A program made the position numbers and the translations under genes. Under the pieces are notes generated by a model. It was not told the origin of the DNA and did no database searches. It worked only from the letters and a program-made list of their open reading frames with translations. Positions 3,495-35,798 of a stretch of 35,798 nt of DNA are shown here, piece after piece; position 1 is the first letter of the stretch; every line of letters starts with the position of its first letter. Source of the stretch: a virus; IMG/VR virus record IMGVR_UViG_3300017748_000033, positions 1 through 35,798 of that record. The stretch is one strand, 5' to 3'.

Positions 3495-3513
3495 ATGGAG
3501 ATGATGAAAAATG
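3495..3513 (+). repeat. 19-bp leader/RBS repeat, copy 1 (before major capsid gene)
   Basis: The 19 bases ATGGAGATGATGAAAAATG end with the start codon of the major capsid gene. They recur exactly at 4673-4691, ending with the start codon of the next gene. GGAGATGAT resembles the anti-SD complement GGAGGTGAT, so this is probably a strong translation initiation region shared by two highly expressed genes. Confidence 0.85.
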
Positions 3514-6379: not shown

Positions 6380-6694
6380 ATGCCACGATTTGAAATTGCA
6401 GATTTTGACCTTGAAACGTCAATTGAAATCAAGAAACGTCGCAACACACGTATGTTTGAACTCATGACCTCTCAAGGGTCAATTGCTGAGGATCAATCAC
6501 CATTTAGCCGTGAGAACATGGCTAAGGCTCAATCTCGCTTTGTGAAGATAAACAAACATGAAGCGAGGGATATTCAAAATATCGGCTCAGGAACACGTTG
6601 CACATCATGTGGACTACTCCACTTTTTGTGGACTCCTGAATGTGCCGTTTGTGGAGAACCAATGCACTTCAACTTAGGAGGACATCACCAATGA
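6380..6694 (+). CDS. Small zinc-ribbon protein
   Basis: The best start is the ATG at 6380 (MPRFEIADFD), preceded by GGGGGATG; the longer upstream frame overlaps the previous gene and is not needed. The 104-residue product has a charged helical N-terminal part (IEIKKRRNTRMFELMTSQG) and a C-terminal zinc ribbon with Cys74-x2-Cys77 and Cys88-x2-Cys91, ending in a His-rich tail (GGHHQ). It could be a nucleic-acid- or protein-binding adaptor. It overlaps the next gene, also Cys-containing, by four bases (ATGA), so the two are probably translated together. Its role in the particle is unknown. Confidence 0.65.
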   Translation: MPRFEIADFDLETSIEIKKRRNTRMFELMTSQGSIAEDQSPFSRENMAKAQSRFVKINKHEARDIQNIGSGTRCTSCGLLHFLWTPECAVCGEPMHFNLGGHHQ

Positions 6695-6999
6695 GCGATG
6701 ATAAACCATACGACGATGTAAAGCCGAAAGAGGACAAATACGGCATGATGAAGCCGAAGAAAAAGACTCCACGTGAAGTCATGATGGAAACCCCCCCTCA
6801 AAAAATGAAGAAGGATAAGCCTTTCACAAAAGCATGGGACGATCTCATCAAGTTCGGTGATTGCCCCGTTTGTGTGGGCGACCCAATGGCTTGTCCTACT
6901 CCTGATGTTCCAGCATCGGCTTGTCCAACTCGAAGAAACGCAATCAAACACATGATGCGAGGAAAGGGCGCACGACCCCCAATGGTTCTCCGTGATTAA
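6691..6999 (+). CDS. Small Lys-rich Cys-cluster protein carrying the AW motif
   Basis: The ATG at 6691 follows an AGGAGGACATCACC ribosome site, nearly a full anti-SD match, which decides this start over in-frame codons further upstream. The 102-residue protein has a disordered, Lys/Pro/Met-rich N-terminal half. At residues 45-54 is FTKAWDDLIK, the copy of the recurrent F-x-x-A-W-x(3,4)-K peptide that lies farthest from the others. A Cys cluster (58, 61, 68, 78) could hold one zinc, and the tail is basic. No family is recognised. The shared motif links it to the cassette at 30452-35060. Confidence 0.65.
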   Translation: MSDDKPYDDVKPKEDKYGMMKPKKKTPREVMMETPPQKMKKDKPFTKAWDDLIKFGDCPVCVGDPMACPTPDVPASACPTRRNAIKHMMRGKGARPPMVLRD

Positions 7000-20800: not shown

Positions 20801-22871
20801 TGATAGCGTCTATCCCTATCAACCAATTCAAGCGGTTGGTCATGGTGGATTGTTGGCAACCAATAGCCGTTCCTACCAATCAAGTTCATTCCCTGCACCT
20901 ATGCCGATTGGGGCTGATGGTGAAACGTTTGTTCCAATCACCACATTTACAGGTGCAGTTCACGGCCCTATCACGCACAGGCACGATACTTCAAACAACC
21001 TTCGAGAATACAACGGCATTGGTTCTCGATTCAAGGTTTTGACAAAAAGTGAAACAGGTGCGCTTACACGGTCATATCAATGGGATGCAGCAGGTAAGAA
21101 CTTCCTTCACATTACCGTTGATGGAACGGCAATGGACGTTTATTTGCGCTCACGTAGCGAATACGCAAAAATGTTTAACTCCGTTTCAGGTAGTTTTGAA
21201 GGGGGATTAGTCCGTATCAATGGGGTGCTTTGCACATATCGGAATATATTCGTGGATTATGGAAGTGGTTCGGTGCTTGGCGAATGCCAACTGCAACGTG
21301 TCCAAGCCTTGACCGACCCAGATAAATTGGTTGAGATGTTTTACGTTGATGGCGGGACGGCGAACACGAAGGCCGATGAAGTGCATGGAATAGAGATTGA
21401 TTTCCTTTACCCCTTGTTGGACTCCGAAGGTATTCTGTTTTTTGGTGGAGGCCACACAGGTTTGACACTTGACATCAGCGATGGAACGGATAACGTCTAT
21501 TCCGATCATTACAAACACCCTCTCGCCAAAGGACCAACTGGTTTTGCTGGATTCCAAAACGTGGGTGAGATTTCAGCACCAACCGCTATTTTGGACTTCA
21601 CCGATGTTTTGAATGAGGACACCATCAATGACGACACGCTACGTGGATTTCACCATACTACCGTTCTCAACTCAAACAACGAACCAGAAGGAAAATGTGC
21701 GTTCTATGGTCGCCTTCAAAATGGGATTTACGGAACTGATGAGGACTTGGGAACAGGGGCGGTATCGCAGGACAACACCAAATGGCGAGAAGATCTCTAT
21801 AATCGAAAGGTTCGGATTACCTCAGCAAATGGAATGGCTACGGCAGGAAACGGGCCAACAAACGGTGTTGAAACCACCCCGACAGGTGCAACACCAACTA
21901 TGAAATTGTTCCATCATGGCGACGTTGTGGCTCTTTTCAACAACAATTCAGGAACGGTTGAAGCCGAACATGGAGAGGTGAAGGAGTTTGACCCGTCGGG
22001 CGAATGGTGCGTTTCAGCCGTTTGTCGTGCGCCAGCCTCAAACCCAAATTATGCCACAGGGCCAATTTTCCATGCGATTTATGATGATGGGACACCAAAC
22101 GGAAAACCCTACGGTTTGCATCTTGGAGGCTCGGCTTACATCACCCCCCCTGTTTCGGGAAAAAGTGCAATTTCAATCGCAATCTCTTTTCCAAACGGCT
22201 CTTTCCCCGCAATTCCAGGCGCAAGTCCCTTAGCCGTATCTGTTCTTGTTCCATCAACCGTCCCTGGTGGAACAGTTGAGGTTAGCAGCATTGGTGAAAC
22301 ATTCATCATGGCTGGTCGAAACCCAAGCGGTGGCAGACCTTCATTCCTTTACATAGGGAATACCGTAGGCATCACCGATCCAACATCAGGTGCTTATGGA
22401 GGTCCAGCCATCCACGATTTCAGCGATTTTCTCATCAATGTTGGAGATGAGAATTATGGGGCTATCGGCACGTCGCCAAACGTAAAACCACTTTTTGAAA
22501 CAGAAACAAGTGGATATGCAGGTGGAAGTCCAGACCATCCGAATGTTCCAACAGCACTACAAACAATTCGAGATAAAAATATGGCGGCAATTGGGTGTTC
22601 ATTGATTGGCTCTCCATTTGTCAATATATTGCCTGGTATGACGGTTCAAGGCGGAGGGTCAATTTCTGCCCCAACAAACGACTATTTCACCGCCCTTCAA
22701 ACAGGGACGGCAACCTATGGAGTTGTAGGGACTGGCGGCTCATTTGGAAATGGAAACAATTCAGCAGGTCCAATTCATTTTGCGGGGTATTTGGCCGAAG
22801 TTGCTTTATGGAAGCGAGCCATGACGTTTAGCGAGGCAACAACTTGGTTTGCGGGACGTAGCAAGTGGTGA
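17850..22871 (+). CDS. Giant tail/baseplate protein with C-terminal LamG-like domain
   Basis: Two adjacent ATGs (17850 and 17853) follow GGGGTGAT; the first overlaps the previous stop. The 1673-residue protein begins MMANLKESNDDGYAGMSG and has a helical section (VVKQTIQGVVDEFIYKTDEVSLQSILKENEEV), then a long mixed region with a baseplate-like part around 480-670 (AEEFNTEISNGEATLEVRGRS..., FYDVEGIYEITDSITDG, KLTVDCTMTAKNRVQ). A LamG-like domain is at about 1380-1673 (GEWCVSAVCRAP, YGLHLGG... ending AEVALWKRAMTFSEATTWFAGRSKW). It is too long for an ordinary fibre. It could be a peripheral baseplate wedge or receptor-binding protein. Nothing enzymatic is recognised. Confidence 0.65.
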   Translation: MMANLKESNDDGYAGMSGMTAYNRVEGEFFLRQMPSPDEQVVKQTIQGVVDEFIYKTDEVSLQSILKENEEVSLTENVYLGESSAIVNQTKTSFATDSGGDPFNRMVIQAGVGSYNSDLAADLSASVFDEVIAIAVENIEPFMMKGLDIDYTADLVSNKPTNDGYIKHLTPSDDPHIASIESPSFLTSAGGPSRVLVFYDAIDLTGEVVAGTTLASSNINPHQRPYHVQNSNKGYLVVKKMIPSASTLYEVSAGTWRSLSDILFKPYSSAPAVDADVQLTITAPGGLISLPTKDFKRPVKSHTLKTHGFGGAFPSPFIDVSDCVIVKQNNKGGYGRPRRVLNPNTPDETANPTHHVMTITSNTGNDLKSFDGTKRTPPELSRSTLQVFNVLDNVVKRNEHVVLVAPANKNRYAVFEDFLTNVDSSNAALVSIEIALLNGRAEEFNTEISNGEATLEVRGRSKLMDITDKETKRNLNLGESVPIKEIGDMGTPTVSLTLGGVGQGGVDAKPEWKQHTFLEGWKDRTVSGGNASVRNDHQTSTDYASTRALVELPLFPSMFYDVEGIYEITDSITDGIHPFNKEVKLTVDCTMTAKNRVQMEKYEARSSVDYGMRDSWSAIEISNIASLGNDYSFAFRAQVPSIQAVITGMDLTAGTANSYIEVDDTEAFVNDTLQGPNGPSIDGSTGVLGRQFYITVGEGMVAPTTDPTLNYCTFLMFRVHKINNSTNRIYVDEAFLRYPRNDLALNLSTSSPRADSFAFVSAPVVLGGVIASTAHTQGLKFNYITTGATSPAETFGDRLKAQLAFCLGLNSAYGTCFDNSLLNQGKRRYLIMKNHAEAGGLEWDIFNEYGYDNNRELKEPIVCIPNFTGLKGIKSDGSGLAYVLPSIYSLRDVALAGDGFNEAVNELIRRINMNGHPKAKNSSGGSAFDPITEDSNGTGGHMGYVRAYRGKEVESRTGEKGLTIVIHSTVPGATGREFAVWITNDSVYPYQPIQAVGHGGLLATNSRSYQSSSFPAPMPIGADGETFVPITTFTGAVHGPITHRHDTSNNLREYNGIGSRFKVLTKSETGALTRSYQWDAAGKNFLHITVDGTAMDVYLRSRSEYAKMFNSVSGSFEGGLVRINGVLCTYRNIFVDYGSGSVLGECQLQRVQALTDPDKLVEMFYVDGGTANTKADEVHGIEIDFLYPLLDSEGILFFGGGHTGLTLDISDGTDNVYSDHYKHPLAKGPTGFAGFQNVGEISAPTAILDFTDVLNEDTINDDTLRGFHHTTVLNSNNEPEGKCAFYGRLQNGIYGTDEDLGTGAVSQDNTKWREDLYNRKVRITSANGMATAGNGPTNGVETTPTGATPTMKLFHHGDVVALFNNNSGTVEAEHGEVKEFDPSGEWCVSAVCRAPASNPNYATGPIFHAIYDDGTPNGKPYGLHLGGSAYITPPVSGKSAISIAISFPNGSFPAIPGASPLAVSVLVPSTVPGGTVEVSSIGETFIMAGRNPSGGRPSFLYIGNTVGITDPTSGAYGGPAIHDFSDFLINVGDENYGAIGTSPNVKPLFETETSGYAGGSPDHPNVPTALQTIRDKNMAAIGCSLIGSPFVNILPGMTVQGGGSISAPTNDYFTALQTGTATYGVVGTGGSFGNGNNSAGPIHFAGYLAEVALWKRAMTFSEATTWFAGRSKW

Positions 22872-22875
22872 TTGA

Positions 22876-25800
22876 ATGGCTGATGTTTATTCTCGATACA
22901 TTGACCCCGCCGCAACGGGTTCATGGGGTGCAACATCAACAGGTGAGTTCGCATCAGGCATTTTTGCTATGCACATCACCTATCCTGATACCGAATATGG
23001 CGATACGGTGGAGAACTGGCAATCAGGGGTCAATTCAGTTGATTGGAGGCAAGGTGTTTCACTTCTTATCCGAACCCCTTTGGCATCAGCATCAGCAACA
23101 ATCAGCGAAGCAACAAACGTTATCGCTATTGATTTGAAACAGGCTAAAGCCAACCATGCAAACCCAAATTACACGTATGATCTTGGGACGGAAGAAGCAG
23201 CCCGTTTTATCGCCGCTAAAATCAATTCACGACGAATCAAAATGAAGGGCGAAAACGATCTAACGAAATACCTCCGAGCAAGGTATGTTCGTCAATCATT
23301 GCCACACAAATACGAAGTCGAGGTAGTTCGTTTTCAAGCACAGGGAGGTGGGACAACTACACTTGAAGTTGAGTTGCCGACAAAAGACAAATATGGTTTT
23401 CCATCGGAACTCCCCAATGATTTCACCTTAAAAGTTGAATCAAGTGGCGTAAGCCCACACATCGCCGCAGGTTCGTATTCAAACCCTTCAATAAAAGCAA
23501 CAAAACACGGAGTAAGCGGCGATTTTGGAGAAGTTGAAGTCATTTTAGATTCAACCCCCACGATAACAGGAAGCCCATCGGCTGGCGATGCTTTGACAAA
23601 TACGTTCACATTGATTGGCGAATCACCAAAACACACAATCGCAATCACGTGGGACAACTACACGCCAAGCACCAATGATGGCTATTGGGGTGCAGCCAAT
23701 TGCGGCCCTGTGGTTCAAGGCATGGGGGCTATTGGCGTTCATCGTTTGGTGGCAAAACCAATGGATGGTGGCAACATGGGGTTGCCAGCGTTGAACTACG
23801 ACTCTCGAAGCGGCATTACCGCCGTTGAGCATTCAAGCAATCATGGCTACAACCGTTTCAGCATTGAAGGCTTGAACTCATGCGTGATGGCTGAAATGCC
23901 ACCTCCTGATCGGAAAACACGATACCCCGTAGTGCAAGGAATCACCACGCTTCATCCAGATACCGAAGGCGATTTAGCATCAAATCGTTTGAGAATCCAA
24001 GAATTGGAATACGGAACAGAAGTGTTCTCCGACAGTAGCACATCAGGTGAGGTGAATGTTGAGAATGGGAGATACCCCCAAACATTCACCAATTCGGTTG
24101 CAGTTGAACACTACGTTCCTACGGGTTCAAATGGGGTTCACCTCAAGAACATTAACAACGATTCAACCAGCATCAAGCATGGGTTGAATGACAGTTCGGA
24201 GAAGGCTTATGCCCGACCATTCCGAATCACACAGGATTTGAACGCAGAACGTGTTCAAGGGCTTCAAATCACAAACGAGCATTTGGTTTTTGAATCAATG
24301 AATGTTGTTGATGATTTGGGCAACGAATTGATTTTGGAAGGCGGGTCGCCCTTTGGAACAATCATTCGTGATTTTGAAGTGCAAAATGCAAGAGAGAATC
24401 CCGCAACTGGTGAAATGGTTGTTGGACCCTCAGCACCAAGCGATACCGTTCCACCAAACCTTCGCATTCAACTTCCAAAGCAAGAAGAAATCCCAGGAGG
24501 CATTTTCGTGCGTAGCGGCCATGACCGAGTTCAAGCGTGGTCAAATCAAACATGGGGGATGGGTGGCCTCACCGCCCCCGATCCACGTGCAGCAGGTGAG
24601 CCAGAAAGTGCAAGCCCATACGACCCCTCCCAATACGAAACACATGACCGTTCTTTGGTTTTTCATTGTGAACGTATTTTGCATGATGGCTTGGAGTCCG
24701 TCTTTGGCCTCGATTTGAGCGTAAAGGCAGGGGCAGTTCCAAGCGGAACTACACGCCTGTTCTCAGCACACCGTATGTCGGACCACACCGAGCGTGGAAG
24801 CCTTTTGAAACAAACAAACAATGGGGCTGAAACAGGAAACCCAATCCCCCATCATCGTATTCGTTTTGGCCGTCAAGGACATTCCTTCGTGATGCCTCTT
24901 TGCCACCGAGGAACGCCAATGTCCATGAGGCGGCAATTGCACCGTTCACACGGTTCGGCGTATTCCCTCATGTTTGAGGGTGAAACCGAATACAAACACT
25001 TTGGATTTGGCAACACCAATTCAACAAACAGTTCTTCGGTTTTCCAACTTGATTCATTGGACGTAAAAACAGCCTCAGCCGTCCATTCAACAGGTTCATT
25101 TTCCTCAGATGGTTTGCCTTTGGATGAACTCAAAGGGATGAGGGGTTATGACGTGGATGGCGCATATACGAGCGCAACACATCGAAGCGTTCCCGATTAT
25201 TTGTTCGCACCTGGTCAAACACACACCAGCGTTGAAGGAACGCCTCAAGACGTGGCTTTTGCATTGGCTGAAATTGACGGTTCGATTTCAACAGGCGCAG
25301 CAACCAAATTGTCATTGCAGGGAAGCACCTTAACGGCAAACAATCGTTTCACCACGGCAAGTGAGTTCATGGTGAACGGATTCTTTCTCAACAATTACCT
25401 CGGCATTGGAGGTCGCCCTGAGCCGATTCGGAGAGTCGCTATTGACTCAGGCGGCAACTGGTTTGTGAGAGGCTATCATGAAGGCGTGATTCGCCCACGT
25501 GTAGCAACTGAATTGGCGACTGTTCCTCCATTGGTTTGCCATGACCCCGCTTTGCTCAACATGGCGGGGTCGCCTTATGCAAATCACGCAACGGTTCCAG
25601 CAACCAGTTGGATTCAAGCAAGTTCAAGTGAAATTGACATGGCTTTGGTGAAAGCGAGGGACACCTCAACAGGTGGAACGCCAGATGCTTTCCTTTGCAC
25701 GTGGTTGGCGGAATACTCCCACCCTGCATTCTTTGGAACCATGCGAGAACATTTCATGTCCTTCCGATACCGTGAGGCAGGAATGCCAAGATCGTTGAAT

Positions 25801-28800
25801 TATCCCTCCACACGTGGTCTTTTCCTTCGCAATCAATCAGTTGATGGGAATTATGGAACAACAGGCTCACCTGCCGTTTCCTTGCCCTTTGAACGCATTT
25901 ACGTTGCACAATGGATGCAGAACTACGCCTACAACGGTTTGAATGCTGGCGGTCATGGGAACGTGGAGGGGCTTCGAGGCGTTGGTGCGGTGTTTATGGG
26001 GCATACGACCCGACGTGAGGCACATGGAACAATTCAACTCTATAACCAAAATGGAACGGCAAGGTATTCACGTGGAGAAGGGATTGGAGACTCTTTGAAC
26101 CCACGAAGTTCAATTGCCGTTGTTCAAGGAATTGACGTTGATGGCGACAGCGAGGACTTGAACAAACAATTCTTTGTTCTTGACCCTTATGTGGCAATAG
26201 ATGTAAGCCGTCGGCTTCCTGTTCGTGCATGGGGTATTCGTAGCGGTTCAAGTGCGCCAAACATGCTGGCTGGCGATCCAACCGAAACCCAAAACACCTA
26301 CGCCATGCTAAATAGTGGCCGCTTTGACGGTGGAAAACACGACTCAATGGAGGACATACCGCAGGGCGTTGATGCTTTCACCAATGACACCAACATTCGG
26401 TCAAATACCGCCAATCGTGGGGGAATCACCCGTTCAATTCCTGTTGGATTTGTAGCAAACGATTTCACGACTGAGGCGCACCCGTTTGAAAGAAACACAC
26501 GTCAAGCAAATGAACGTATCAAAGCACAGGATGAACAACTCGGCATTGGTTCAAACCTTGGAATCACCAGCAACGGCCAGTTATCGCCACACGCTCAAGC
26601 GGCTGGTTCTTGGGACTATGAAACAAATGATACGAGGCCAACAACTTTGCCTGTAAGCGGCCCCGTATTGTGGCTAAAAGGCGATTCTTTGGGTTTAGAA
26701 GATGGTGCAGCAGTTTCCTCTTGGGTTGATTCCTCAGCAAACAATTGGGAGTTCACGCAGGGTTCGGCTTCTGCTCAACCAACATTTATCAAACGCGATC
26801 CAATCGTGAACAATCATCCCGTTATTGACTGTGATGGCAACGACTTTCTGCAAATTGATTTCCAAGAGGAATTAAACCCTGTTGAAATGACGTTGTTCAC
26901 CGTTGCCTACGTTGATTCCGACGATGGAGGGATTCACGGCATCGTTGAATCCCGTTCTGGCTCGCCAGTTGCACGAAGCGGTTTCAACCTCTATGGGCGT
27001 ATGGATTCGGGGAACAAGTGGCAATTTTGGATGGGTGGGAACACGGGCTGGCCTAATGTTGAAACGGCAACGAACTCATTGGAAGGTAGTGTTCCCGACA
27101 TCATCACGGGCAAGATCTATGGAGGGAATGGGAACGGCAGCAACGCAACTCAAGAAATCTATGAAAACGGGTATCTGGCCGATTCCCAAACGGCTTTGTT
27201 TTGGCGTTCAACTGCTTCAACCTACATGGTGGGGCGTGTCCCAGGTTCGTTTTATCTCAATGGAAAAATTGCTGAGGTCATTCAATACAACCGAAAATTG
27301 ACTACTCAAGAGCAATATGAGGTTGAGGCTTACCTTTCCCGAAAATACGCAATTTCAATCTCCACATCAGCCAGTTTAAGTCATTCAGGAAGAATCAATA
27401 ATGCCGACAAAATACCGCTTAACAAAGGAACCGATCCATTTATTGATTTGGTTCAAAGAAGCGGCAGCACGTCTTACTCGCAAGAACATTCGTTAGGTGG
27501 AATAATAACGACCACGCTTGATGAAAGGTTTGGCGCATCTTCCAATTTTTATCACCTAAAAGGAAATGCACTTCACACAAACGGACATGCGATTACTGAG
27601 TCAAAAGGTGAAATCTCCTATCCGCCCAACGGATATTCAACCGCCGTTGTTTCAAGTTTGACTGTTGATGATGCCCGACCTGATTTGGTGAACGAAATCA
27701 GCGAAACACGTCAAATCCAATCGAGAAGTGAGCCACGCCTTGGCCTCATCATGGAGGTTGAAAGTGAGCGAAACGACAACAAAGACGTGAATTATTCAAT
27801 CACAGGGACAAGAGCGTTGTCGCTACACACCGATCTTATGTTGGGGCATCACTTCCCTGTTCTCCCATCGCACGTTGTTAAAAGCAAAATGGCGAACATT
27901 GGATTTAGCAAGGACGGGACGGGTTCGGCAGCGACAGTCCCAGACTACGACATCAAGCCAACATGGAGTCCCGACTCCAACAACTCAAAAGGTGCGGTTG
28001 CATTGTCTGGCGACACCGTGAAAACGGCCTACAAAACCCACGCATTGGACGCTTGGGCTGTTCGAGGCGTGTCGGACCTTCCAGCATGGGGAGGCGTGTT
28101 TATCCTCCGCAAAACATACCTCAACCGTGAGGACTCCGAGGATGCACCATTGAACACCGAGATTGACTCCAACACGAACAGGGCGACCACATCACACCCC
28201 CGACGTAAATACGTGGACTACATCGTGCGTCCTGTTCGCCCGTTGAAATTGTTTGGATTCGCTTCGGATTTGCTACAAGACGGTTGGACAATGGGGCCGC
28301 AAAGTTCGGTAAGCACCGCAACCCTCGCATCTCAAGCCTTTGACCGTGATAAGCGATATGGCGTGTTTGAAATGAATTATTCAAGAGGGGTGAACGGCAT
28401 TGAACCCATCACCTCGGCAGGTTCAACATTCGCCATTGATTACCCCGATTCCAACGAATACGACGTGGTGTGGCACATTATCCCCACCGCCAATATGCTT
28501 CAATTCGCAAAAGCCGACGCTCACCGCATAGACGATGGAGGTTTCTTCAATCCCAAAATTGAAGCACGATATTCACAGGCTCAAACAACAGGTGGCGGCG
28601 AACCAATTTATCAGTCCGAAACACGATACGCCACTACAACTGGCATCATGGGCGACCATGCTCGACAGACCAAGCAACATGAAATCACACAGTCAAAAGA
28701 AGCCATGCGCTACTTCCCACGTGTCAAGGTATTGGCAAACAAAGGAAGTGGTGTTTTCTTGGTTGATGATTCCAGCGTTCTTCCAGCAACAGGCAAGTTG

Positions 28801-30450
28801 TTTGCTCTTGACCATTCAGGCGTTATCACCTATTCAGCCATCAACGACAACGATTTGACCACCACAGGAACATTGACCAATCTTGCTGGCGTTTCGGTAT
28901 CGGATTTCACAGGGCTTGAGTTGTATTTCACCGACGTTTCCAGCATCCCATCATCAGCACCAGGTTCAATTCGCTATGCTCGAAGCCCATTGGTCAAGCA
29001 AGCAATTGCACCAACGCTGGTGGATAACGCCGTGATTGCTATGCAACTTGTTTCACAAGCATGGTATTACTACGACGAAACCACCAACGTTGTGAGCAAA
29101 ACGGCTTTGAATTATCGTGGACTTTTGCACTACGAACCTTCCGACTTCATCATGGCGACTCAACGGCCATTTGAAATCAAGAACGGCAGCAACCGTGGCG
29201 TGATTCAAAACAAGAACTCACTTGATGAAATCCGTTCCGATGGCCGCATTATTTCAAACGATTTCACCCCCCCGTATATCATTGATTCAAACAATATCAA
29301 ATGGAGAGTCGTTGAGGTTATTCGTGAACAAAAGAACGCCGTCATGGTGTTCAAGGACATGTCGGGCAAGAGCCTATCGGATTCGGGCATGGCCGTTGGC
29401 GATGTGATCGCGGGTCAGGCTGGCTACATCGGCCTTCGAACATCGGATGCAGCCATGCACCTTCTCAACGATGCAGGAGGAAGCGTTGCTGGAATCACAA
29501 TCACGCCAACCTCCGCCATGCACGACAACTCAAAGGACATTGAAACGTATTTGGGCGCACACCCAATGCTACGTCAAATCAACGACCATTCCAAGCAATA
29601 CGTTTCACGTGATACGAGAGGACTCAACACAATGGAGGTGTTGCGAAACATTTCACAATTGGATGGTCGCCAAATCATCAACGAGCGCAACGGAACAATC
29701 GTATTCTCGGATAAAGTGTTCAAGGAGAAGGGCATTCGCATTGGAATTGAGAATGGCGTTCAATCTGTCAAAGTCAGCAAGTTGTTTGATTCTCCAAACG
29801 AGATTGTCATTGTTGGTGATGTTATCGCTGGCAACGAAATTGTGTTCATCCGTGTTCGTGATAGCGAGAAAATACGTCAAGCCTCAGCAGGTGGCGAAGA
29901 GGAAGTTATCAAAACACTACGGCAACAGATTCCTGGTGTCAAGAGCGTGTCGGCTGCACGTAAGTTGGCAAAGACCCTCCTTGCGAGGGCTGAGAATGGC
30001 GCACCGATGATTTACATTCAAGGATTGATGAACGCTACGTCTGTTGAGGCTGGCGACATCATAGATGTCAATTTGCCAACTCAAGGCGTGGTCGGCAAGT
30101 TCGTTGTGTTTGAAGCAAAGCATCATTATCAATCGCTCAAAACCGACCTCACCGTTGCTCAATACGAGAAGGGCATTGAGGGTATTTTGGCCGACATCAA
30201 AACCAGCACCGTTGATTCAAGCGGATTGAGCGCAAGTTCTGGCGATAAGGACATCAAAGAAAACCTTGCTATGTCAGCCTCAGTTGCCATCATCAGCGTT
30301 CATCGAGTCCGTATTCGCAACGTCAATGAAACAGGCTTCATTATCGGTGCAAGGCACAAAAACGGGCTTGGAAAGATAGGTGTTCGGGATGGGAATAAAA
30401 GAGGCTTCCCCATCGGCATGAGTAAGAGCCGAAATTACGTGGTGAAGTGA
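22876..30450 (+). CDS. 2524-residue tail tip protein: internal LamG domain and C-terminal hub-like domain
   Basis: The start at 22876 has GTGGTGATTG upstream and lies four bases after the previous stop. Most of the protein is unassigned and Gly/Ser/Asn-rich. At about residues 1261-1491 a LamG domain begins GPVLWLKGDSLGLEDGAAVSSWVD and ends GKIAEVIQYNRKLTTQEQYEVEAYLSRKYA; it clearly resembles the C-terminal domain of the protein at 15493-17853. At about 2226-2440 a hub-like region follows (RGLNTMEVLRNISQLDGRQIINERNG..., ENGVQSVKVSKLFDSPNEIVIVGD, EAGDIIDVNLPTQGVVGKFVVFEAKHHYQSLKTDLTVAQYEKG), the pattern of baseplate hub/tail-associated proteins. The very end is short and basic. It probably closes the tail tip and carries receptor-binding domains. 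It is much longer than typical hub proteins (400-1200 residues). Confidence 0.7.
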   Translation: MADVYSRYIDPAATGSWGATSTGEFASGIFAMHITYPDTEYGDTVENWQSGVNSVDWRQGVSLLIRTPLASASATISEATNVIAIDLKQAKANHANPNYTYDLGTEEAARFIAAKINSRRIKMKGENDLTKYLRARYVRQSLPHKYEVEVVRFQAQGGGTTTLEVELPTKDKYGFPSELPNDFTLKVESSGVSPHIAAGSYSNPSIKATKHGVSGDFGEVEVILDSTPTITGSPSAGDALTNTFTLIGESPKHTIAITWDNYTPSTNDGYWGAANCGPVVQGMGAIGVHRLVAKPMDGGNMGLPALNYDSRSGITAVEHSSNHGYNRFSIEGLNSCVMAEMPPPDRKTRYPVVQGITTLHPDTEGDLASNRLRIQELEYGTEVFSDSSTSGEVNVENGRYPQTFTNSVAVEHYVPTGSNGVHLKNINNDSTSIKHGLNDSSEKAYARPFRITQDLNAERVQGLQITNEHLVFESMNVVDDLGNELILEGGSPFGTIIRDFEVQNARENPATGEMVVGPSAPSDTVPPNLRIQLPKQEEIPGGIFVRSGHDRVQAWSNQTWGMGGLTAPDPRAAGEPESASPYDPSQYETHDRSLVFHCERILHDGLESVFGLDLSVKAGAVPSGTTRLFSAHRMSDHTERGSLLKQTNNGAETGNPIPHHRIRFGRQGHSFVMPLCHRGTPMSMRRQLHRSHGSAYSLMFEGETEYKHFGFGNTNSTNSSSVFQLDSLDVKTASAVHSTGSFSSDGLPLDELKGMRGYDVDGAYTSATHRSVPDYLFAPGQTHTSVEGTPQDVAFALAEIDGSISTGAATKLSLQGSTLTANNRFTTASEFMVNGFFLNNYLGIGGRPEPIRRVAIDSGGNWFVRGYHEGVIRPRVATELATVPPLVCHDPALLNMAGSPYANHATVPATSWIQASSSEIDMALVKARDTSTGGTPDAFLCTWLAEYSHPAFFGTMREHFMSFRYREAGMPRSLNYPSTRGLFLRNQSVDGNYGTTGSPAVSLPFERIYVAQWMQNYAYNGLNAGGHGNVEGLRGVGAVFMGHTTRREAHGTIQLYNQNGTARYSRGEGIGDSLNPRSSIAVVQGIDVDGDSEDLNKQFFVLDPYVAIDVSRRLPVRAWGIRSGSSAPNMLAGDPTETQNTYAMLNSGRFDGGKHDSMEDIPQGVDAFTNDTNIRSNTANRGGITRSIPVGFVANDFTTEAHPFERNTRQANERIKAQDEQLGIGSNLGITSNGQLSPHAQAAGSWDYETNDTRPTTLPVSGPVLWLKGDSLGLEDGAAVSSWVDSSANNWEFTQGSASAQPTFIKRDPIVNNHPVIDCDGNDFLQIDFQEELNPVEMTLFTVAYVDSDDGGIHGIVESRSGSPVARSGFNLYGRMDSGNKWQFWMGGNTGWPNVETATNSLEGSVPDIITGKIYGGNGNGSNATQEIYENGYLADSQTALFWRSTASTYMVGRVPGSFYLNGKIAEVIQYNRKLTTQEQYEVEAYLSRKYAISISTSASLSHSGRINNADKIPLNKGTDPFIDLVQRSGSTSYSQEHSLGGIITTTLDERFGASSNFYHLKGNALHTNGHAITESKGEISYPPNGYSTAVVSSLTVDDARPDLVNEISETRQIQSRSEPRLGLIMEVESERNDNKDVNYSITGTRALSLHTDLMLGHHFPVLPSHVVKSKMANIGFSKDGTGSAATVPDYDIKPTWSPDSNNSKGAVALSGDTVKTAYKTHALDAWAVRGVSDLPAWGGVFILRKTYLNREDSEDAPLNTEIDSNTNRATTSHPRRKYVDYIVRPVRPLKLFGFASDLLQDGWTMGPQSSVSTATLASQAFDRDKRYGVFEMNYSRGVNGIEPITSAGSTFAIDYPDSNEYDVVWHIIPTANMLQFAKADAHRIDDGGFFNPKIEARYSQAQTTGGGEPIYQSETRYATTTGIMGDHARQTKQHEITQSKEAMRYFPRVKVLANKGSGVFLVDDSSVLPATGKLFALDHSGVITYSAINDNDLTTTGTLTNLAGVSVSDFTGLELYFTDVSSIPSSAPGSIRYARSPLVKQAIAPTLVDNAVIAMQLVSQAWYYYDETTNVVSKTALNYRGLLHYEPSDFIMATQRPFEIKNGSNRGVIQNKNSLDEIRSDGRIISNDFTPPYIIDSNNIKWRVVEVIREQKNAVMVFKDMSGKSLSDSGMAVGDVIAGQAGYIGLRTSDAAMHLLNDAGGSVAGITITPTSAMHDNSKDIETYLGAHPMLRQINDHSKQYVSRDTRGLNTMEVLRNISQLDGRQIINERNGTIVFSDKVFKEKGIRIGIENGVQSVKVSKLFDSPNEIVIVGDVIAGNEIVFIRVRDSEKIRQASAGGEEEVIKTLRQQIPGVKSVSAARKLAKTLLARAENGAPMIYIQGLMNATSVEAGDIIDVNLPTQGVVGKFVVFEAKHHYQSLKTDLTVAQYEKGIEGILADIKTSTVDSSGLSASSGDKDIKENLAMSASVAIISVHRVRIRNVNETGFIIGARHKNGLGKIGVRDGNKRGFPIGMSKSRNYVVK

Positions 30451-30451
30451 G

Positions 30452-30856
30452 ATGGACGGGAATTGCTACCAATGCGCTTATCGTGCGCTTTCAACAGGAA
30501 ATCCCGAATGGCAAAACCCACGCTTAGTCCATGCCGACATCACGCATTCACACACAGGCGATCCATATTCACACGCTTACGTCGTTTATGACAAAGCACT
30601 TCCTTTTCCAGAACCAATGCCCAAAGAATGGGGGGGCAACATTCCAACAATGGAGTTCGTGCATGACCAGTCCAATTCATTCAAAGGATCGGATGATACG
30701 CCACGTGTGTTCTATGAAATGATGGCAAGACCAAATTATGAAACAATGCGTGAATACACGCTGGAACAAATGATGGAACAGGCTATGAAACATGGGCATT
30801 ACGGACCCTGGATTGATGATGAAAAACCGTTTAAAAAAGCATGGAAGATGATGTGA
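30452..30856 (+). CDS. Putative papain-like cysteine hydrolase with C-terminal AW motif
   Basis: The ATG at 30452 lies one base after the preceding stop, with GGTGAAGTGAG upstream. The 134-residue protein starts MDGNCYQCAY and has SHAYVVYDK and VHDQSNSF. Cys5, His41 and Asp72 are spaced like the catalytic Cys-His-Asp of small papain-fold proteins, and it continues with YTLEQMMEQAMKHGHYGPW. From memory, this 'GNCyqa...l.H.......HaWve.......D.S.........YY.........Yt...a......yGpWd' layout is widespread in phage proteins of unknown function. The last residues, FKKAWKMM (127-134), are the recurrent F-x-x-A-W peptide placed at the extreme C terminus. It opens the accessory cassette. Peptidase, amidase or transferase activity is possible; none is shown. 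Confidence 0.65.
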   Translation: MDGNCYQCAYRALSTGNPEWQNPRLVHADITHSHTGDPYSHAYVVYDKALPFPEPMPKEWGGNIPTMEFVHDQSNSFKGSDDTPRVFYEMMARPNYETMREYTLEQMMEQAMKHGHYGPWIDDEKPFKKAWKMM

Positions 30857-30857
30857 T

Positions 30858-31199
30858 ATGCCAGTTCTTGACCCCCTAAAAGCCGCTTTGACCGACCACC
30901 TCCAAACGCTCATCAAGAAGTGTTCGCTTGGTTCTGGGGCTTCCGATGCCTCAAGCCGTGATGGAGGCGCAGGGAACACCAAAATGAGCCGTGATACGAC
31001 CATTCAACGTATTGATGATCGGACAATCTCGGTGAGCGCATTATTTGACACCCAATTATCCAGCGAACAGGACATCACCGAAGTTGTGCTTCATGGCACA
31101 AACCCTCTTGATTCGCCAAGTTTTAGGGCAACTTTCATGCCTATAACAAAGAACGGCACAAATGAAGTCCGTGTGGATATTTTGATGGAGGTTCGATAA
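30858..31199 (+). CDS. Small tail-type beta protein
   Basis: The ATG at 30858 follows GATGATGTGAT and lies one base after the previous stop. The 113-residue protein has an N-terminal helix (LKAALTDHLQTLIKKCSLGSG), a Gly/Ser/Asp-rich turn, and C-terminal strands (RTISVSALFDTQLSS, DITEVVLHG, SFRATFMPI, EVRVDILMEVR). The 'g.g....s..d..l........i.......i......f......i.evgL' plan is common in small tail-fibre or tail-tip proteins of tailed phages, so a virion role is likely. It lacks the AW motif, although its neighbours have it. The stop overlaps the next ATG by one base. Confidence 0.6.
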   Translation: MPVLDPLKAALTDHLQTLIKKCSLGSGASDASSRDGGAGNTKMSRDTTIQRIDDRTISVSALFDTQLSSEQDITEVVLHGTNPLDSPSFRATFMPITKNGTNEVRVDILMEVR

Positions 31200-31633
31200 T
31201 GTCCGACTTGAAAAAGAAAAAATGTTGCTGCGGTGCAACTGAAAAGAATCCCTGCGCTTGTATGAAAAAGGGAATTATGAAATGTTCAGCAAAAGAGCCT
31301 ATGTGCCAATGCTACAAGGACTTGAAGAAACAAGGCAAGCACCCTGCTGATTTGAAGAAATCATTCAATGGTGCATGGTTGATTATGAAGGCTGATGAGG
31401 CCGACGTTGGCATTTGCGATGGTTGCATGGAAACCGCCTTAATTGGTCGTCTTTCAACGGGTCAAGGCAATGCTTTGCTTTGCTACGATTGCTGGCGAAA
31501 GGAGATGCAATGGCGGCATTTAAGAAATGTGGACCTGGAAGAATCAGGAGGCTACGTCCACCCCAACGATTATTTCGAAATTGAAACATGGCCGCATAGC
31601 GACATGGAACCTGGAATGGAGGGCTACCAATGA
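31199..31633 (+). CDS. Cys-rich putative metal-binding protein with AW motif
   Basis: The start at 31199 follows GGAGGTTCGATA. The 144-residue protein has two Cys sections. The N-terminal part holds Cys 9, 10, 11, 19, 21, 29, 36 and 38 within 30 residues, enough for a metal cluster. The second has Cys73-x2-Cys76 and Cys95-x2-Cys98 (GICDGC ... LLCYDC), a zinc-ribbon spacing. Between them, residues 56-64 read FNGAWLIMK followed by ADEAD, one of the best copies of the recurring peptide. The C-terminal 45 residues are acidic and aromatic. It overlaps the next gene by four bases (ATGA). No family is recognised. Confidence 0.65.
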   Translation: MSDLKKKKCCCGATEKNPCACMKKGIMKCSAKEPMCQCYKDLKKQGKHPADLKKSFNGAWLIMKADEADVGICDGCMETALIGRLSTGQGNALLCYDCWRKEMQWRHLRNVDLEESGGYVHPNDYFEIETWPHSDMEPGMEGYQ

Positions 31634-32349
31634 GCGATTATGACCCCTATGCGCCAAGACCACTTTCAGGATTGGCAAGAGGGCAACATGATTCATACGC
31701 TCCAACTTGGATGAACAAGGTGATTGAACCCGCAGAATACACCGAGGACGGTCGAAGAATACGAATGAAAGGGCTTACTGAGGATGAAGCCAACATGGTG
31801 CGAGATGAATTGAAACATGGAAATGAGGTGAGGACGGCTCCCGATGGGACATTCATGCTGCTTCACGCTGATCATCCTCGATATAATGAAGGAACAGATT
31901 ACTCACAGGGTTCGCCTAAACGCATTGCCATGATGGAAGCATACCAAAAAAGGAATGAAGAATACCGAAAAAAACACGGGTTGAAAAAAATGAACGATGA
32001 AACATTTGAGATTGCATGGGAACTGATGAAAAGCGACGAGAAGGGCGACAACGCCCCAACCAATCCTGGTCTTTGGGCGCAAGCCAAATCAAAGGCACGT
32101 TCTAAGTTCAAGGTTTATCCGTCTGCCTACGCCAACGGTTGGGCTGCTAAATGGTATAAATCCAAAGGTGGCGGCTGGAAGAAGAAAGGCAAGAGCAACA
32201 AGAAAGTGAAGAAATCCGACGATGAAGGATGGACTGATAACGACCTTCAATGCCGAATGTGCAAATACGTTCAAACCCCTGAAGAATGGGAAGCAAAGAA
32301 CTGTAAAAAGTGTGGGACAAGGAATATGCTTCATCCGTTTTGGCGTTGA
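31630..32349 (+). CDS. Basic protein with AW motif, phage-type Trp/Lys domain and zinc ribbon
   Basis: The start has GGAGGG upstream, within the previous gene. Four parts are visible in the 239 residues. Residues 1-115 hold a Pro/Tyr-rich start and a helical region with TEDEANMVRDELKHGNEV. Residues 126-134 are FEIAWELMK followed by SDEKGDN, a strong AW-motif copy. Residues about 145-186 (NPGLWAQAKSKARSKFKVYP, SAYANGWAAKWYKSKGGGWK) match a small basic domain I have seen repeatedly in phage and large-virus proteins, function unknown. Finally, a zinc ribbon at Cys208-x2-Cys211 and Cys225-x2-Cys228. The lysine-rich centre suggests nucleic-acid contact. Confidence 0.65.
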   Translation: MSDYDPYAPRPLSGLARGQHDSYAPTWMNKVIEPAEYTEDGRRIRMKGLTEDEANMVRDELKHGNEVRTAPDGTFMLLHADHPRYNEGTDYSQGSPKRIAMMEAYQKRNEEYRKKHGLKKMNDETFEIAWELMKSDEKGDNAPTNPGLWAQAKSKARSKFKVYPSAYANGWAAKWYKSKGGGWKKKGKSNKKVKKSDDEGWTDNDLQCRMCKYVQTPEEWEAKNCKKCGTRNMLHPFWR

Positions 32350-32355
32350 TGCTTC

Positions 32356-33849
32356 ATGATTGACGTTCCCGTTTCCGATCTCATCTCAAAGGACTTGAGG
32401 CGATGGTTCAAGGAAAAGTGGGTGGACGTTTCACGTAAGGGCAAAGACGGCAAGCACCCTCCCTGTGGGCGTGGTGAAGCCAAAACCGATAGCAGGGGCT
32501 ACCCCAAGTGCCGACCATCAAAGAAGGTCAGCAGCAAGACCCCTGAAACCACACGTGGCATCAGTTCGAAGGAGAAGAAGGCAATGACTCGCAGGAAGCG
32601 GTCAAAGCCACAGGGCGTTGGTGGAAAGCCAACGATGGTCAAGAGCAATTTTGAAGTCGCATGGGATTCAATCAGCAAAGACTTCTATTTTGACAACTCA
32701 GATAAGGGGCTGCGAACTGGTGGAGAACGGATTGGACCGAAAGCGTATGGGAAAACACAGATTGACGATGCAAAGGGGAGAAGAACTGGCATCAAACGTC
32801 TTTTGAATAGACCAATTGATATTGACGCACAAGATACGCCAGAAGATGGAAACCCTTCAAGTCAAAACACCGTCCTTACAGGTGATGCTTTCGAGCAGAA
32901 TAGCCGCCACCGACGCTTTGATACGAAGCCGTATGATGCTTCGGAACGAAAAGAAAGGGGGGAAGGTGCAACACCAAATGATTCTCAATCACCTTCCAAC
33001 TTCCGAAGAGGCGGTTCATTGCCGAGAACAGTTCAAAGAACCACAGATAGCCCACAATTACACACCCTTTATCAAGACAAAGAAGGGCAAACAATGGACC
33101 CTGAATACTTGGGCGAGGGTGCTACAACGGGTGGTGGATGGGACCGCACAGGAAAGCGTTATTTTTACGGAGATTCAAACAAACCTCGAAGATTTGAAGG
33201 CCAAGAACGGGAATATGCTACGCACGTTGGGGCAAATCTTTCTGCTTATGGGAAGCAGATGAGAGAAGGGAGAATGAATGAGGATGAGGCTATTGAAAGC
33301 CTCTCAGGGACTTTGGGACATGAATACACGCACGAAGCAATTGATGAGGATTTGAAAGAGGCAGTTAATAGGGGAGATTTGCCGAGTGATCATTATCACG
33401 CAGCACATGAAGTGGGCGCACATGTCGGGCAGTATTCGGACCTTGATGATAAAGAAATGGAAACAGAAGTCAATGACTCTTTGCTTACGCACCCTTCGAC
33501 CAATTTCTTTAACCTATACGGAAAAACGCCTGAAAAGTTTCAGCGTGAAGGGGGAGGGCATCGAATCAAAATGCCAAAAATGGCTCAAAGCAGCGACGAC
33601 ATCAAACAAGCCTCGTTTAACCAAGCATGGAGTTCCATTGCTAAAGGTCGCTTTCACGGCTACACCCAATCAAACATCAGCAACAGACCATACCGACAGG
33701 CTGAACACCGAGTTTGGGACATCTCACGTAAAATCAAGCGAGAGCGCACAAAGAGGCGTTATGCTCGCAATAAGAGCAGGGGAACAGTTCGTCCCGCCAT
33801 GCGTCGTCAATTAGGCGCAGGGGGCAAAAGAGCAAGCACCAAGAGGTGA
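32356..33849 (+). CDS. Multidomain protein: basic Cys domain, two AW motifs, HExxH putative metallopeptidase
   Basis: The ATG at 32356 lies seven bases after the previous stop, with no clear ribosome site, so coupling is likely. Residues 1-85 (RRWFKEKWVDVSRKGK..., PPCGRGEAKTDSRGYPKCRP, SSKEKKAMTRRKR, VGGKPT) resemble a small basic domain widespread in phage and giant-virus proteins (I believe DUF6321, unverified). Residues 99-108 are FEVAWDSISK, the first AW motif. A disordered section follows. At 322-326 is HEYTH, an HExxH zinc-peptidase motif, and HAAHEVGAH some 25 residues downstream offers a third ligand. Residues 421-430 are FNQAWSSIAK, the second AW motif, and the rest is strongly basic (KIKRERTKRRYARNKS). 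It is the only protein with two motif copies, bracketing the candidate peptidase. Confidence 0.65.
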   Translation: MIDVPVSDLISKDLRRWFKEKWVDVSRKGKDGKHPPCGRGEAKTDSRGYPKCRPSKKVSSKTPETTRGISSKEKKAMTRRKRSKPQGVGGKPTMVKSNFEVAWDSISKDFYFDNSDKGLRTGGERIGPKAYGKTQIDDAKGRRTGIKRLLNRPIDIDAQDTPEDGNPSSQNTVLTGDAFEQNSRHRRFDTKPYDASERKERGEGATPNDSQSPSNFRRGGSLPRTVQRTTDSPQLHTLYQDKEGQTMDPEYLGEGATTGGGWDRTGKRYFYGDSNKPRRFEGQEREYATHVGANLSAYGKQMREGRMNEDEAIESLSGTLGHEYTHEAIDEDLKEAVNRGDLPSDHYHAAHEVGAHVGQYSDLDDKEMETEVNDSLLTHPSTNFFNLYGKTPEKFQREGGGHRIKMPKMAQSSDDIKQASFNQAWSSIAKGRFHGYTQSNISNRPYRQAEHRVWDISRKIKRERTKRRYARNKSRGTVRPAMRRQLGAGGKRASTKR

Positions 33850-33857
33850 GGCTTGAT

Positions 33858-35060
33858 ATGGTTTTTGATACAGCATGGGACTTGATGAAAGCCGACATTT
33901 ACCATGAGGGGAGAGCCTATTCCAGCATGGACGACTTGATGCCCATTTTGGATGAACAGATTCAAGGGTGGGGAGAAAGCAACAAAAAATTGTCGCCATT
34001 CCCATTCCCTTACAAAAGCGGGAATTATCGCCACAAGTCATGGAAGGGAATGCTGGATAGGGGCTTGGATGATTTTATCACAAACAATCCTGGTTTCCAA
34101 TCAAGTGATGAAATGCTTCCTTCCATGATGCCTTGGATTGGTGGGAAAACACAAATCCAACCGTATGTTCGAGGGCTTGCTGATTTCGCCCCTAATACAC
34201 GGGCTGCTGAGTTGTATGGAGGTAGCGGTTCAACCATTCTTGGTTTGAATAGGGGAACTGGATTTTATGCCGACATAAACCCTGATAATACCAATGCCTT
34301 TCAACACCTCAAAGACGGATTGGGAATCATTGAGATACCCAAAACGAGAGATCGTATGAATGAGATGATTTCAAGAATGAATGATTTGCGATTCCGAAGG
34401 GACGTGAAAGGTGAACAGTTGTCAAGTGATGAACTAAGGGAACTTGCATCGCACTACATCGCAACAAACCATCAAGCGTTTGGCAATTTGAATTATCCTC
34501 AAAGCCAAAAGCAACGTGCAAAATATCCCGAATGGTATCAGGGAACAGGCTACACCGAAGGACCGATATTGAATAGCGGTTGGAGAAGAAGTTCACAACG
34601 AATTATGCCTCATCGTGTTGGCGCACTTGATTTAAGCGCATACCCAGATAGGATGCGTGATGTGGAGATTCATACGGGAGATATTCGAGATACCGTGAAC
34701 TTGCTTGACGGTGATGAGTTGATGTATCTCGACCCTCAATACCTTGACCGTCAAATCCAATACGGGGGTTCCGACCAACAACAATCTGGCACAGGTTATG
34801 ACCAACTTCAAAGAGACACCATACGAATTGGTGCAGAACATGACGGCCCCGTTCTTTATTCAAATTATTTGGTTGGTCCTAAATCGGGCTTGCCAAATGA
34901 GGAAATGATTCGTGATTTATTGGATGGAGGATTTGACTTGCACACGTGGATGCGAAAGCCAAAGCAAAACAAAAGACCTGTCGTTGAAGTTCTTGGACTT
35001 CGCAACTTCCCTGAACACGTCCAAAGAGCGAGACTCAACAAATCCCTGTTTGACTTCTAA
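33858..35060 (+). CDS. Dam-like N6-adenine DNA methyltransferase with N-terminal AW motif
   Basis: The start is the ATG at 33858, decided by GAGGTGAGG ending seven bases upstream; a GTG at 33846 overlaps the previous gene. The first residues MVFDTAWDLMKAD are the recurring AW peptide, placed ahead of the enzyme. The methyltransferase (about 90-385) shows a D12/Dam-class layout: PWIGGKTQIQPYV at 92 (motif X, the SAM-pocket WxGGK), AELYGGSGST at 118 (motif I), YADINPDNTNAFQHL (acidic SAM-binding loop) and LMYLDPQYL at 292-295, where the usual DPPY reads DPQY. The altered motif may lower or change activity. It would methylate adenine in viral or host DNA, for example against restriction. It is the last gene of the + strand run and overlaps the opposing gene by four bases. 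Confidence 0.75.
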   Translation: MVFDTAWDLMKADIYHEGRAYSSMDDLMPILDEQIQGWGESNKKLSPFPFPYKSGNYRHKSWKGMLDRGLDDFITNNPGFQSSDEMLPSMMPWIGGKTQIQPYVRGLADFAPNTRAAELYGGSGSTILGLNRGTGFYADINPDNTNAFQHLKDGLGIIEIPKTRDRMNEMISRMNDLRFRRDVKGEQLSSDELRELASHYIATNHQAFGNLNYPQSQKQRAKYPEWYQGTGYTEGPILNSGWRRSSQRIMPHRVGALDLSAYPDRMRDVEIHTGDIRDTVNLLDGDELMYLDPQYLDRQIQYGGSDQQQSGTGYDQLQRDTIRIGAEHDGPVLYSNYLVGPKSGLPNEEMIRDLLDGGFDLHTWMRKPKQNKRPVVEVLGLRNFPEHVQRARLNKSLFDF

Positions 35061-35798
35061 GCGTGTTGAGCGTGGGTGTAAGTGATTGAGGCGAAAGCCG
35101 CAGTTGCATAAGCAACTCCAAATGTTGCAGGGTCATTCAACGTGAGATTTAATGCAGCGACGGTGTAGTGAATTGCTTCAACCAGCGTTCCCAAAAAGAT
35201 GTTTGCGGCATCGAACACATCAACCCGAATCAAATGAGTTGCCCCGTCCTCTTCACTTTGAAGGGGCTTATACAGGAGGCCAGCAGGGGCGGCAGTTCCG
35301 AAGTTAAGAACAGTCGGTCCGACGTAAGGAATCATAGGAGTTTTAGCCGTCCTGTGAATCGGCGTGATTTGATACGTTCCACCCCCACCTGTGGTGAGTC
35401 CTAAGCCTTGGTCGGATTGAAAGAACAAGTGTGTTTGACCTACCCCTTGAGGGAATTGGGTGAAGCCGCTTGGATTACGTGCATAAAGAACGCCAAGGTC
35501 GGTGATTGGAAGGTCGGCAGCGTTAAAGCCAGCCACGAAGTCATTTCGAAGGTTTTCTTCTGTTCCATCGCTATGCTCAATTGCCGACAATGCAACAGGA
35601 CCAGGGCGAATGAATGACCTCTTATCCTCTATGGCGAGAATGACGGGGTTTGATGCACCCTTGCCGACTCGAACTGCGGCAAGCACCGTGTTCTGCAAGA
35701 CAAGGTGGTTTGACGGCGACTGAGGGTATAATCCCGTCGCCGTATCAACGTAAGAGCCAAACACAAACCCAATGTTGTTTGGCAAGCGAGGATCAACA
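35057..35798 (-). CDS. Unknown protein on the opposite strand (5' partial)
   Basis: The frame is open to the right edge of the window (V-D-P-R precede a TTG at 35785), so the start probably lies outside. At least 246 residues are visible. The protein is rich in Ala, Thr, Gly and Pro and has beta-type strands with loops, for example NNIGFVFGSYVDTATGLYPQ, HLVLQNTVLAAVRVGKGASNPVILAIEDKRS, THLFFQSDQGLGLTTGGGG and THLIRVDVFDAANIFLGTLVEAIHYTV. No Cys is visible, no enzyme motif is recognised and there is no AW motif. A structural or virion-surface role is possible. Its stop (TAG on the - strand) shares four bases with the methyltransferase stop, so the two genes are convergent. Confidence 0.6.
   Translation of the reverse strand, partial: VDPRLPNNIGFVFGSYVDTATGLYPQSPSNHLVLQNTVLAAVRVGKGASNPVILAIEDKRSFIRPGPVALSAIEHSDGTEENLRNDFVAGFNAADLPITDLGVLYARNPSGFTQFPQGVGQTHLFFQSDQGLGLTTGGGGTYQITPIHRTAKTPMIPYVGPTVLNFGTAAPAGLLYKPLQSEEDGATHLIRVDVFDAANIFLGTLVEAIHYTVAALNLTLNDPATFGVAYATAAFASITYTHAQHA

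Follow-up and report, generated by a model that had tools for sequence, protein, structure and literature searches.

The viral DNA analysed here, IMG/VR record IMGVR_UViG_3300017748_000033 (35,798 bases; the window), contains the structural block of a tailed virus, with an S78 prohead protease, an SU10-like capsid protein and a tape-measure-like protein. Behind its tail genes lies a cassette of six accessory genes, all on the plus strand between positions 30452 and 35060, most of whose products share a nine-residue peptide, F-x-x-A-W-x-x-[LMV]-K, hereafter the AW peptide or AW tag. We describe the cassette, the distribution of the peptide in related viruses, and the case for reading it as a label for proteins that travel inside the virus particle.

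The cassette and its genes

An original prediction made from this DNA had placed six tightly packed or overlapping genes at the end of the late operon and had assigned the AW peptide to five of them. Both points were confirmed. From the end of the gene for a 2524-amino acid tail-region protein through gene 6, the intergenic gaps are 1, 1, −1, −4, 6 and −4 nucleotides; at this spacing, −4 to +6 nucleotides behind the tail gene, the six genes look like the last part of the tail operon. The peptide is present in the products of genes 1, 3, 4, 5 and 6, twice in that of gene 5, and is absent from gene 2.

22876-30450, plus strand: 2524-amino acid tail-region protein, directly upstream of the cassette
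30452-30856, plus strand: gene 1, 134 amino acids, papain-like pattern GNCYQC ... HAY; AW tag FKKAWKMM at the extreme C-terminus (30830-30853)
30858-31199, plus strand: gene 2, 113 amino acids, conserved and untagged, the anchor of the cassette; 22 distinct homologues
31199-31633, plus strand: gene 3, 144 amino acids, Cys-rich (12 Cys); internal AW tag FNGAWLIMK (31364-31390)
31630-32349, plus strand: gene 4, 239 amino acids; internal AW tag FEIAWELMK (32005-32031), followed by a basic YPSAYAN segment and, at the C-terminus, a zinc ribbon (CRMC...CKKC)
32356-33849, plus strand: gene 5, 497 amino acids; DUF5872 (Pfam E 1e-11), AW tag (32650-32679), HExxH domain (HEYTH), second AW tag (33616-33645)
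33846-35060, plus strand: gene 6, 404 amino acids, predicted D12-type adenine methyltransferase; N-terminal AW tag FDTAWDLMK (33864-33890), motif IV DPQY

In related viruses the homologues of gene 2 are placed right behind the tail gene or behind one or two accessory genes, and none of the 22 distinct sequences is tagged. Of 20 distinct gene 3 homologues, 13 score as tagged at the cut-off of the position weight matrix (PWM) described below, as do all 13 of gene 4, some of the latter consisting of little beyond the tag and the YPSAYAN segment. Gene 5 is related to another tagged HExxH protein (L187:12144-13526), with the similarity beginning at the tag. Pelagibacter and Prochlorococcus phages also have the DUF5872 segment, and Synechococcus phages have part of the YPSAYAN segment, in each case within unnamed proteins (both segments lie in window 31630-33849).

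The activities originally predicted for the cassette (proteolysis, DNA modification, metal or nucleic-acid binding) held in part. The HExxH motif of gene 5 and the zinc ribbon of gene 4 are present. Gene 6 matches the Pfam family MethyltransfD12 (E 1.7e-9; 38.3 bits against a curated cut-off of 22), and on this sequence match its assignment as a DNA methyltransferase is well supported. Its motif IV fails the pattern [DNS]PP[YFW], however, reading DPQY in the window and five close relatives and DPPY in six more distant aligned homologues. Because of the DPQY motif its activity is uncertain, and the enzyme may be altered or inactive. The window methyltransferase had no match in the phage collection. 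For gene 1, no Pfam, NCBIfam or PHROG match was found, a profile of its family returned no match among solved structures, and the best Foldseek hit was not significant (E 0.59); the weak matches, several of them papain-like, include vasohibins, SpvD, SseI and staphopain. Its AlphaFold2 model has a predicted local distance difference test (pLDDT) score of 77 and a disordered tag tail. With a Cys/His pattern, a weak fold match and no family match, gene 1 is at best a weak papain-like candidate.

The AW peptide in magroviruses

The window is assigned to a magrovirus, a tailed virus of marine Poseidoniales archaea. The window spans the morphogenesis block only, and the wider genome plan was scored in relative G004 (96.6 kb), which has its structural genes on one strand and its replication genes on the other and encodes a group II chaperonin (Cpn60_TCP1 E 1e-131; thermosome in the PDB E 3e-111) and an HMG-CoA lyase (HMGL-like E 1.4e-25). 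These features match published traits of magroviruses as viruses of Poseidoniales (PMC12999244; PMC10768690; PMC5332604), whose morphogenesis genes are transcribed in one direction and replication genes in the other (PMC12999244; PMC10768690). Opposed blocks, chaperonin and HMG-CoA lyase are thus common to G004 and the described genomes of the Magrovirales (Apasviridae and Aoguangviridae; Nishimura 2017). The lyase gene of G004 (21202-22071; L093:1202-2071) is untagged and lies within an array of tagged genes. The top matches of the window capsid protein in the phage collection were the druskavirids HVTV-1, HCTV-1 and HCTV-5, at about 32% identity.

The major capsid protein (MCP) was used as bait for collecting relatives. 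Related capsid genes are frequent in IMG/VR (140 relatives, of which the best 80 were retained), and the window together with 19 relatives' contigs, complete or nearly so and chosen by capsid homology rather than by the tag, formed a 20-contig set. A regular expression found 189 tags in this set, against 11 in reversed and 13 in shuffled proteins. A 13-column PWM, trained on the same tags, marked 205 tagged proteins against two in reversed proteins; the regular expression and the reversed control are independent of that training. Chance arising from composition was ruled out as the source of the tag by the reversed and shuffled controls. The consensus is M-T-A-F-[DE]-x-A-W-x-[LIV]-[LVMI]-K, in which F and W are fixed by the search itself and Lys is the next most conserved residue (111 of 123). 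Near-complete genomes carry 7 (G026), 13 (G014), 15 (G016), 19 (G006 and G024) or 21 (G004) tagged genes.

The peptide is nearly restricted to this virus group. The pattern ATGACNGCNTTYGANNNNGCNTGG matched 109 stretches among the 2.9 million viral contigs of IMG/VR when read forward and none when read backwards. Forty-two of the 48 contigs examined that contain it also encode a magrovirus capsid or terminase protein, and among the remaining six, G032 counts as a magrovirus because of its cassette and tail genes. A search of 84,980 bacterial and archaeal genomes gave 21 scattered single matches, none with an archaeal title, which rules out a general motif of cellular proteins.

The tagged proteins are diverse. 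With the tag masked, the 205 proteins of the 20-contig set fell into 86 BLAST families, 57 of them singletons, and all collected loci together gave 590 distinct tagged proteins in 173 to 199 families. Most of the additional loci were picked by the tag pattern, so the larger set informs on family diversity and not on frequency, and family counts are approximate since single-linkage clusters chain through common domains. The domains that can be named are an ADP-ribosyltransferase (ART) fold, D12 and C5-type methyltransferases, HExxH, zinc ribbons, DUF5872, DUF6321 and GP88. The ART fold was predicted for tagged proteins of relatives, for which Tpt1/KptA were the top Foldseek matches (probability up to 1.00) and a profile search matched Tpt1 and DarT1 only; E-values are modest and the query model has a mean pLDDT of 66.

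Placement of the tag varies as well. In the 20-contig set, 118 of 189 tags lie within the first 15 residues. Among all 590 proteins, 473 tags are N-terminal, 102 internal and 15 C-terminal, in a scan whose anchoring at ATG enriches N-terminal tags and with mechanical gene calls (longest open reading frames, first start) that may make some N-terminal tags appear internal. The tag also moves within families. Among papain-like proteins, those of the window, L157 and L301 have it C-terminally, that of L129 has it just past the enzyme domain, and the distant members L235 and L276 have it N-terminally; members of the methyltransferase family have it N-terminally, internally or C-terminally. The suggestion that different enzymes are swapped into the cassette while the tag stays was borne out across genomes, the cassette genes being exchanged among relatives with the peptide mostly retained. 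In the window and several relatives, the gene 6 slot is occupied by a D12 enzyme that follows VRLDMVFDTAWDLMK or a close variant of it; L301 instead has a C5-type enzyme (YAGAGG, SPPC) behind VRLDMVFNTAWALMK, and L010 has one behind MPFEIAWGIVK. In G004, a C5-type methyltransferase (L096:3717-4877) begins with LMK right before the enzyme, like the leftover end of a tag.

These data bear on two other explanations of the tag. One is that all tagged genes form a single fast-evolving paralogous family, with the tag as its best conserved ancestral remnant. Tandem arrays of short genes sharing the start MTAFD would suit it, but distinct folds are tagged (ART fold, D12 and C5 methyltransferases, HExxH, zinc ribbons and DUF5872) and the tag sits at different ends within the papain-like family, and we find this the hardest of all the explanations to credit. 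The other holds that a DNA-level element, a recombination linker or translation-start signal, aids gene swapping and that the peptide is its by-product. Gene swapping is indeed frequent, many tags begin at codon 4, and some codon bias remains at the tag. Yet the 149 FxxAW copies are encoded by 96 distinct 15-mers, with varying Ala and Lys codons, and because synonymous codons vary we conclude that selection acts on the peptide and not on the DNA. The internal and C-terminal tags exclude a start-site signal, and the conserved residues follow helical spacing in the protein. Given the codon variation and the internal and C-terminal tags, we rejected the DNA-level explanation as very improbable.

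Selection on the peptide has a further aspect. Unrelated tagged proteins agree at position +7, counted from the Phe, more often within a genome (0.373) than between genomes (0.237; p ~0.003, the limit of 300 permutations). Such agreement is expected if one receptor is shared, and it suggests a receptor-specific dialect; an exchange of tags between neighbouring genes could also give it. Position +7 is V-rich in G024 and A/V in G015 and G026. In structure models, the tag is helical at residues 3-11 of the ART protein and forms a disordered tail in the papain-like protein.

Tagged genes on the structural strand

The original prediction had placed the cassette among the late structural genes, and this association extends to tagged genes at large. 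The strand of the MCP gene carries 189 of 200 tagged genes, compared with 805 of 1313 untagged genes (Fisher p 6e-25, a value that overstates independence because the genomes are related). They occur at both ends of the structural block. The tail-side cassette, 26-30 kb from the capsid gene, is the smaller of two tagged arrays. The larger lies on the terminase side at about 25-43 kb from the capsid gene and in G004 comprises 13 tagged genes out of 15 (20.1-28.4 kb), the last eight consecutive. Lone tagged genes occur at two further positions, about 3 kb past the capsid gene and about 14-19 kb ahead of it, the gene at the second position being tagged in some genomes only. Some contigs, such as G014, are cut elsewhere, so their offsets differ. 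In the window, the head region contains the following features.

2121-3485, plus strand: prohead protease (Peptidase_S78, Pfam E 2.4e-10), with FLLKS near the N-terminus
3511-4659, plus strand: major capsid protein, SU10-like (Pfam E 1.2e-9; PHROG major head E 4.6e-48)
6640-6999, plus strand: another tagged gene, lying among the head genes some 3 kb past the MCP gene, with AW tag FTKAWDDLIK (6823-6852)

A conserved, strongly basic protein of 431-556 amino acids is encoded before the terminase gene (G004 36927-38477 and homologues in 12 other contigs) and could be a head-core or DNA-binding protein. At the other end, a conserved protein of about 381-386 amino acids, encoded on the opposite strand, flanks the cassette in most relatives that reach that far (window 35057-35797, minus strand; G004 84868-86028).

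The tag might act in one of three places. If cargo were loaded at the tail, in its tube or on its tip, much as in contractile injection systems, a cassette directly behind the giant tail gene with gaps of a few bases would be accounted for. However, the larger array is on the terminase side, the lone tagged genes adjoin head genes, and the tails of Aoguangviridae are predicted to be non-contractile (PMC10768690). We consider tail loading improbable.

A stronger competitor is that the peptide docks the proteins, unpackaged, on a cellular or viral factor in the infected cell, such as the replication site, RNA polymerase, the chaperonin or a membrane. One common receptor would fit the tag no less well, the per-genome preference at +7 included; magroviruses have a chaperonin and replication machinery of their own, and some tagged genes lie on the other strand. 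Against it, the tag is almost limited to the structural strand, where it adjoins tail and head genes, and few of the replication genes that G004 carries on its other strand are tagged. We also know of no in-cell docking scheme that uses dozens of unrelated cargo proteins, whereas a capsid-targeting scheme is known. Docking in the cell is the main rival reading, to be taken seriously though unlikely.

The third place is the assembling particle. A short helix-like segment on diverse, quickly exchanged proteins encoded alongside the structural ones resembles a particle-loading signal, and for this reason we favour docking into the procapsid.

A candidate tag for virion cargo

We propose that the AW peptide is a virion-cargo tag for docking into the procapsid, packaging and injection, a reading in which we have moderate confidence. 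On this view the structural-gene strand of a magrovirus encodes many accessory proteins that are unrelated to one another but have in common a brief amphipathic stretch (F at 0, W at +4, a hydrophobic residue at +7 and Lys at +8), placed N-terminally, C-terminally or between domains. This stretch would dock on a component of the assembling particle, most likely in the procapsid interior (scaffold, portal or capsid protein). The cargo would then enter the particle together with the DNA and reach the next host cell, where its enzymes may act ahead of viral gene expression, perhaps on host proteins or against restriction. No magrovirus has yet been cultured, and we therefore infer packaging and injection, as well as particle docking and the effector roles, from the genes.

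A more speculative addition is cleavage by the S78 protease after the conserved Lys of the tag. The N-termini of the protease (window 2121-3485) and the MCP (3511-4659) contain a hydrophobic-hydrophobic-Lys-[ASG] motif (FLLKS and ELLKAD) that is conserved across diverged magroviruses (L282-L294). This motif resembles the end of the AW tag and might be a processing site of both; however, conservation along the whole MCP N-terminus is too high for the motif to be informative, and the protease N-terminus aligns loosely.

Among the closest precedents is phage T4, whose Alt protein is an ADP-ribosyltransferase. T4 internal proteins (IPI-III and Alt) bear one short peptide, the capsid-targeting sequence (CTS), on otherwise unrelated hypervariable proteins, as in the AW system. 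The T4 set consists of highly diverse defence proteins in which only the CTS is conserved (PMC3012670), and Alt is an internal head protein that assembles by means of a capsid-targeting sequence (PMC5694885). As in T4, the cargo varies between related viruses while the peptide is retained, an ART fold is present among the cargo, and a prohead protease is encoded in the same genome. The likeness is drawn from arrangement, the AW system being known from its genes. Unlike the T4 CTS, the AW tag can be N-terminal, internal or C-terminal, there are up to about 20 cargo genes per genome, and the host is an archaeon.

Phage P1, which the original prediction had named as a parallel, is also a tailed virus encoding accessory proteins, the Dar proteins, which are packaged through a terminal signal and have an antirestriction role (PMC9024508). 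P1 differs in having one multi-component set, with the signal in the N-terminal 30 residues of DarB and not described as common to many families. No DarB homologue turned up in the magrovirus analysis, which included no search aimed at DarB. In the giant phages SPN3US and phiKZ, many head-packaged proteins are ejected with the DNA, and N-terminal propeptides are thought to be needed for their packaging (PMC5694885). Many of these propeptides are longer than 100 residues, with cleavage at motifs that end in Glu, in contrast to a nine-residue tag across families. In the open-access descriptions of magroviruses consulted (PMC12999244; PMC10768690; PMC10160649; PMC5332604), we found no mention of a shared peptide or of packaged accessory proteins.

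Several observations weigh against the virion-cargo proposal. Eleven tagged genes near the tail-side cassette are encoded on the opposite strand; six of these belong to G011, in which that strand also carries part of the cassette. The larger array of G004 stands at the start of the structural strand and could in principle be expressed earlier than the structural genes. The basic protein before the terminase gene is untagged in G014, G016, G024 and G008 and tagged in others, so that the tag is dispensable there. No AW tag was found in the 50 kb (half the genome) scanned of halovirus HVTV-1, and most tagged proteins have no match to any family of known function.

Taken with these points, the original view of the cassette as a set of injected proteins is partly supported: the parallel with injected head proteins remains the best reading, but of the two tagged arrays the cassette is the smaller, the larger one, before the head genes, lying outside the window, and some of the activities assigned to its genes are weakly supported. 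By analogy with the phage systems, the nine-residue peptide on dozens of unrelated accessory proteins is probably a particle-loading label for delivery into the next host. We lean slightly towards a broader statement, that the Magrovirales own a general modular virion-cargo system in which a nine-residue peptide, at either end of a protein or inside it, loads a large and quickly exchanged set of effectors for injection, with well over a hundred families across the group and up to about 20 per virus. To our knowledge, this would be the first such cargo-tagging system recognised in viruses of archaea.

The proposal makes a simple prediction that can be checked in marine virion metaproteomes and by heterologous assembly, and if the tag works at either terminus it would be usable for loading chosen proteins into particles. 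Magroviruses are reported to be ubiquitous in the surface ocean (PMC10160649). Most of their genes have no assigned function, and with a tag defined by sequence the 590 distinct tagged proteins, from at least 173 families, can be listed as candidates for injected effectors. If the proposal is correct, head-packaged effectors of the T4 type would extend to the viruses of archaea.

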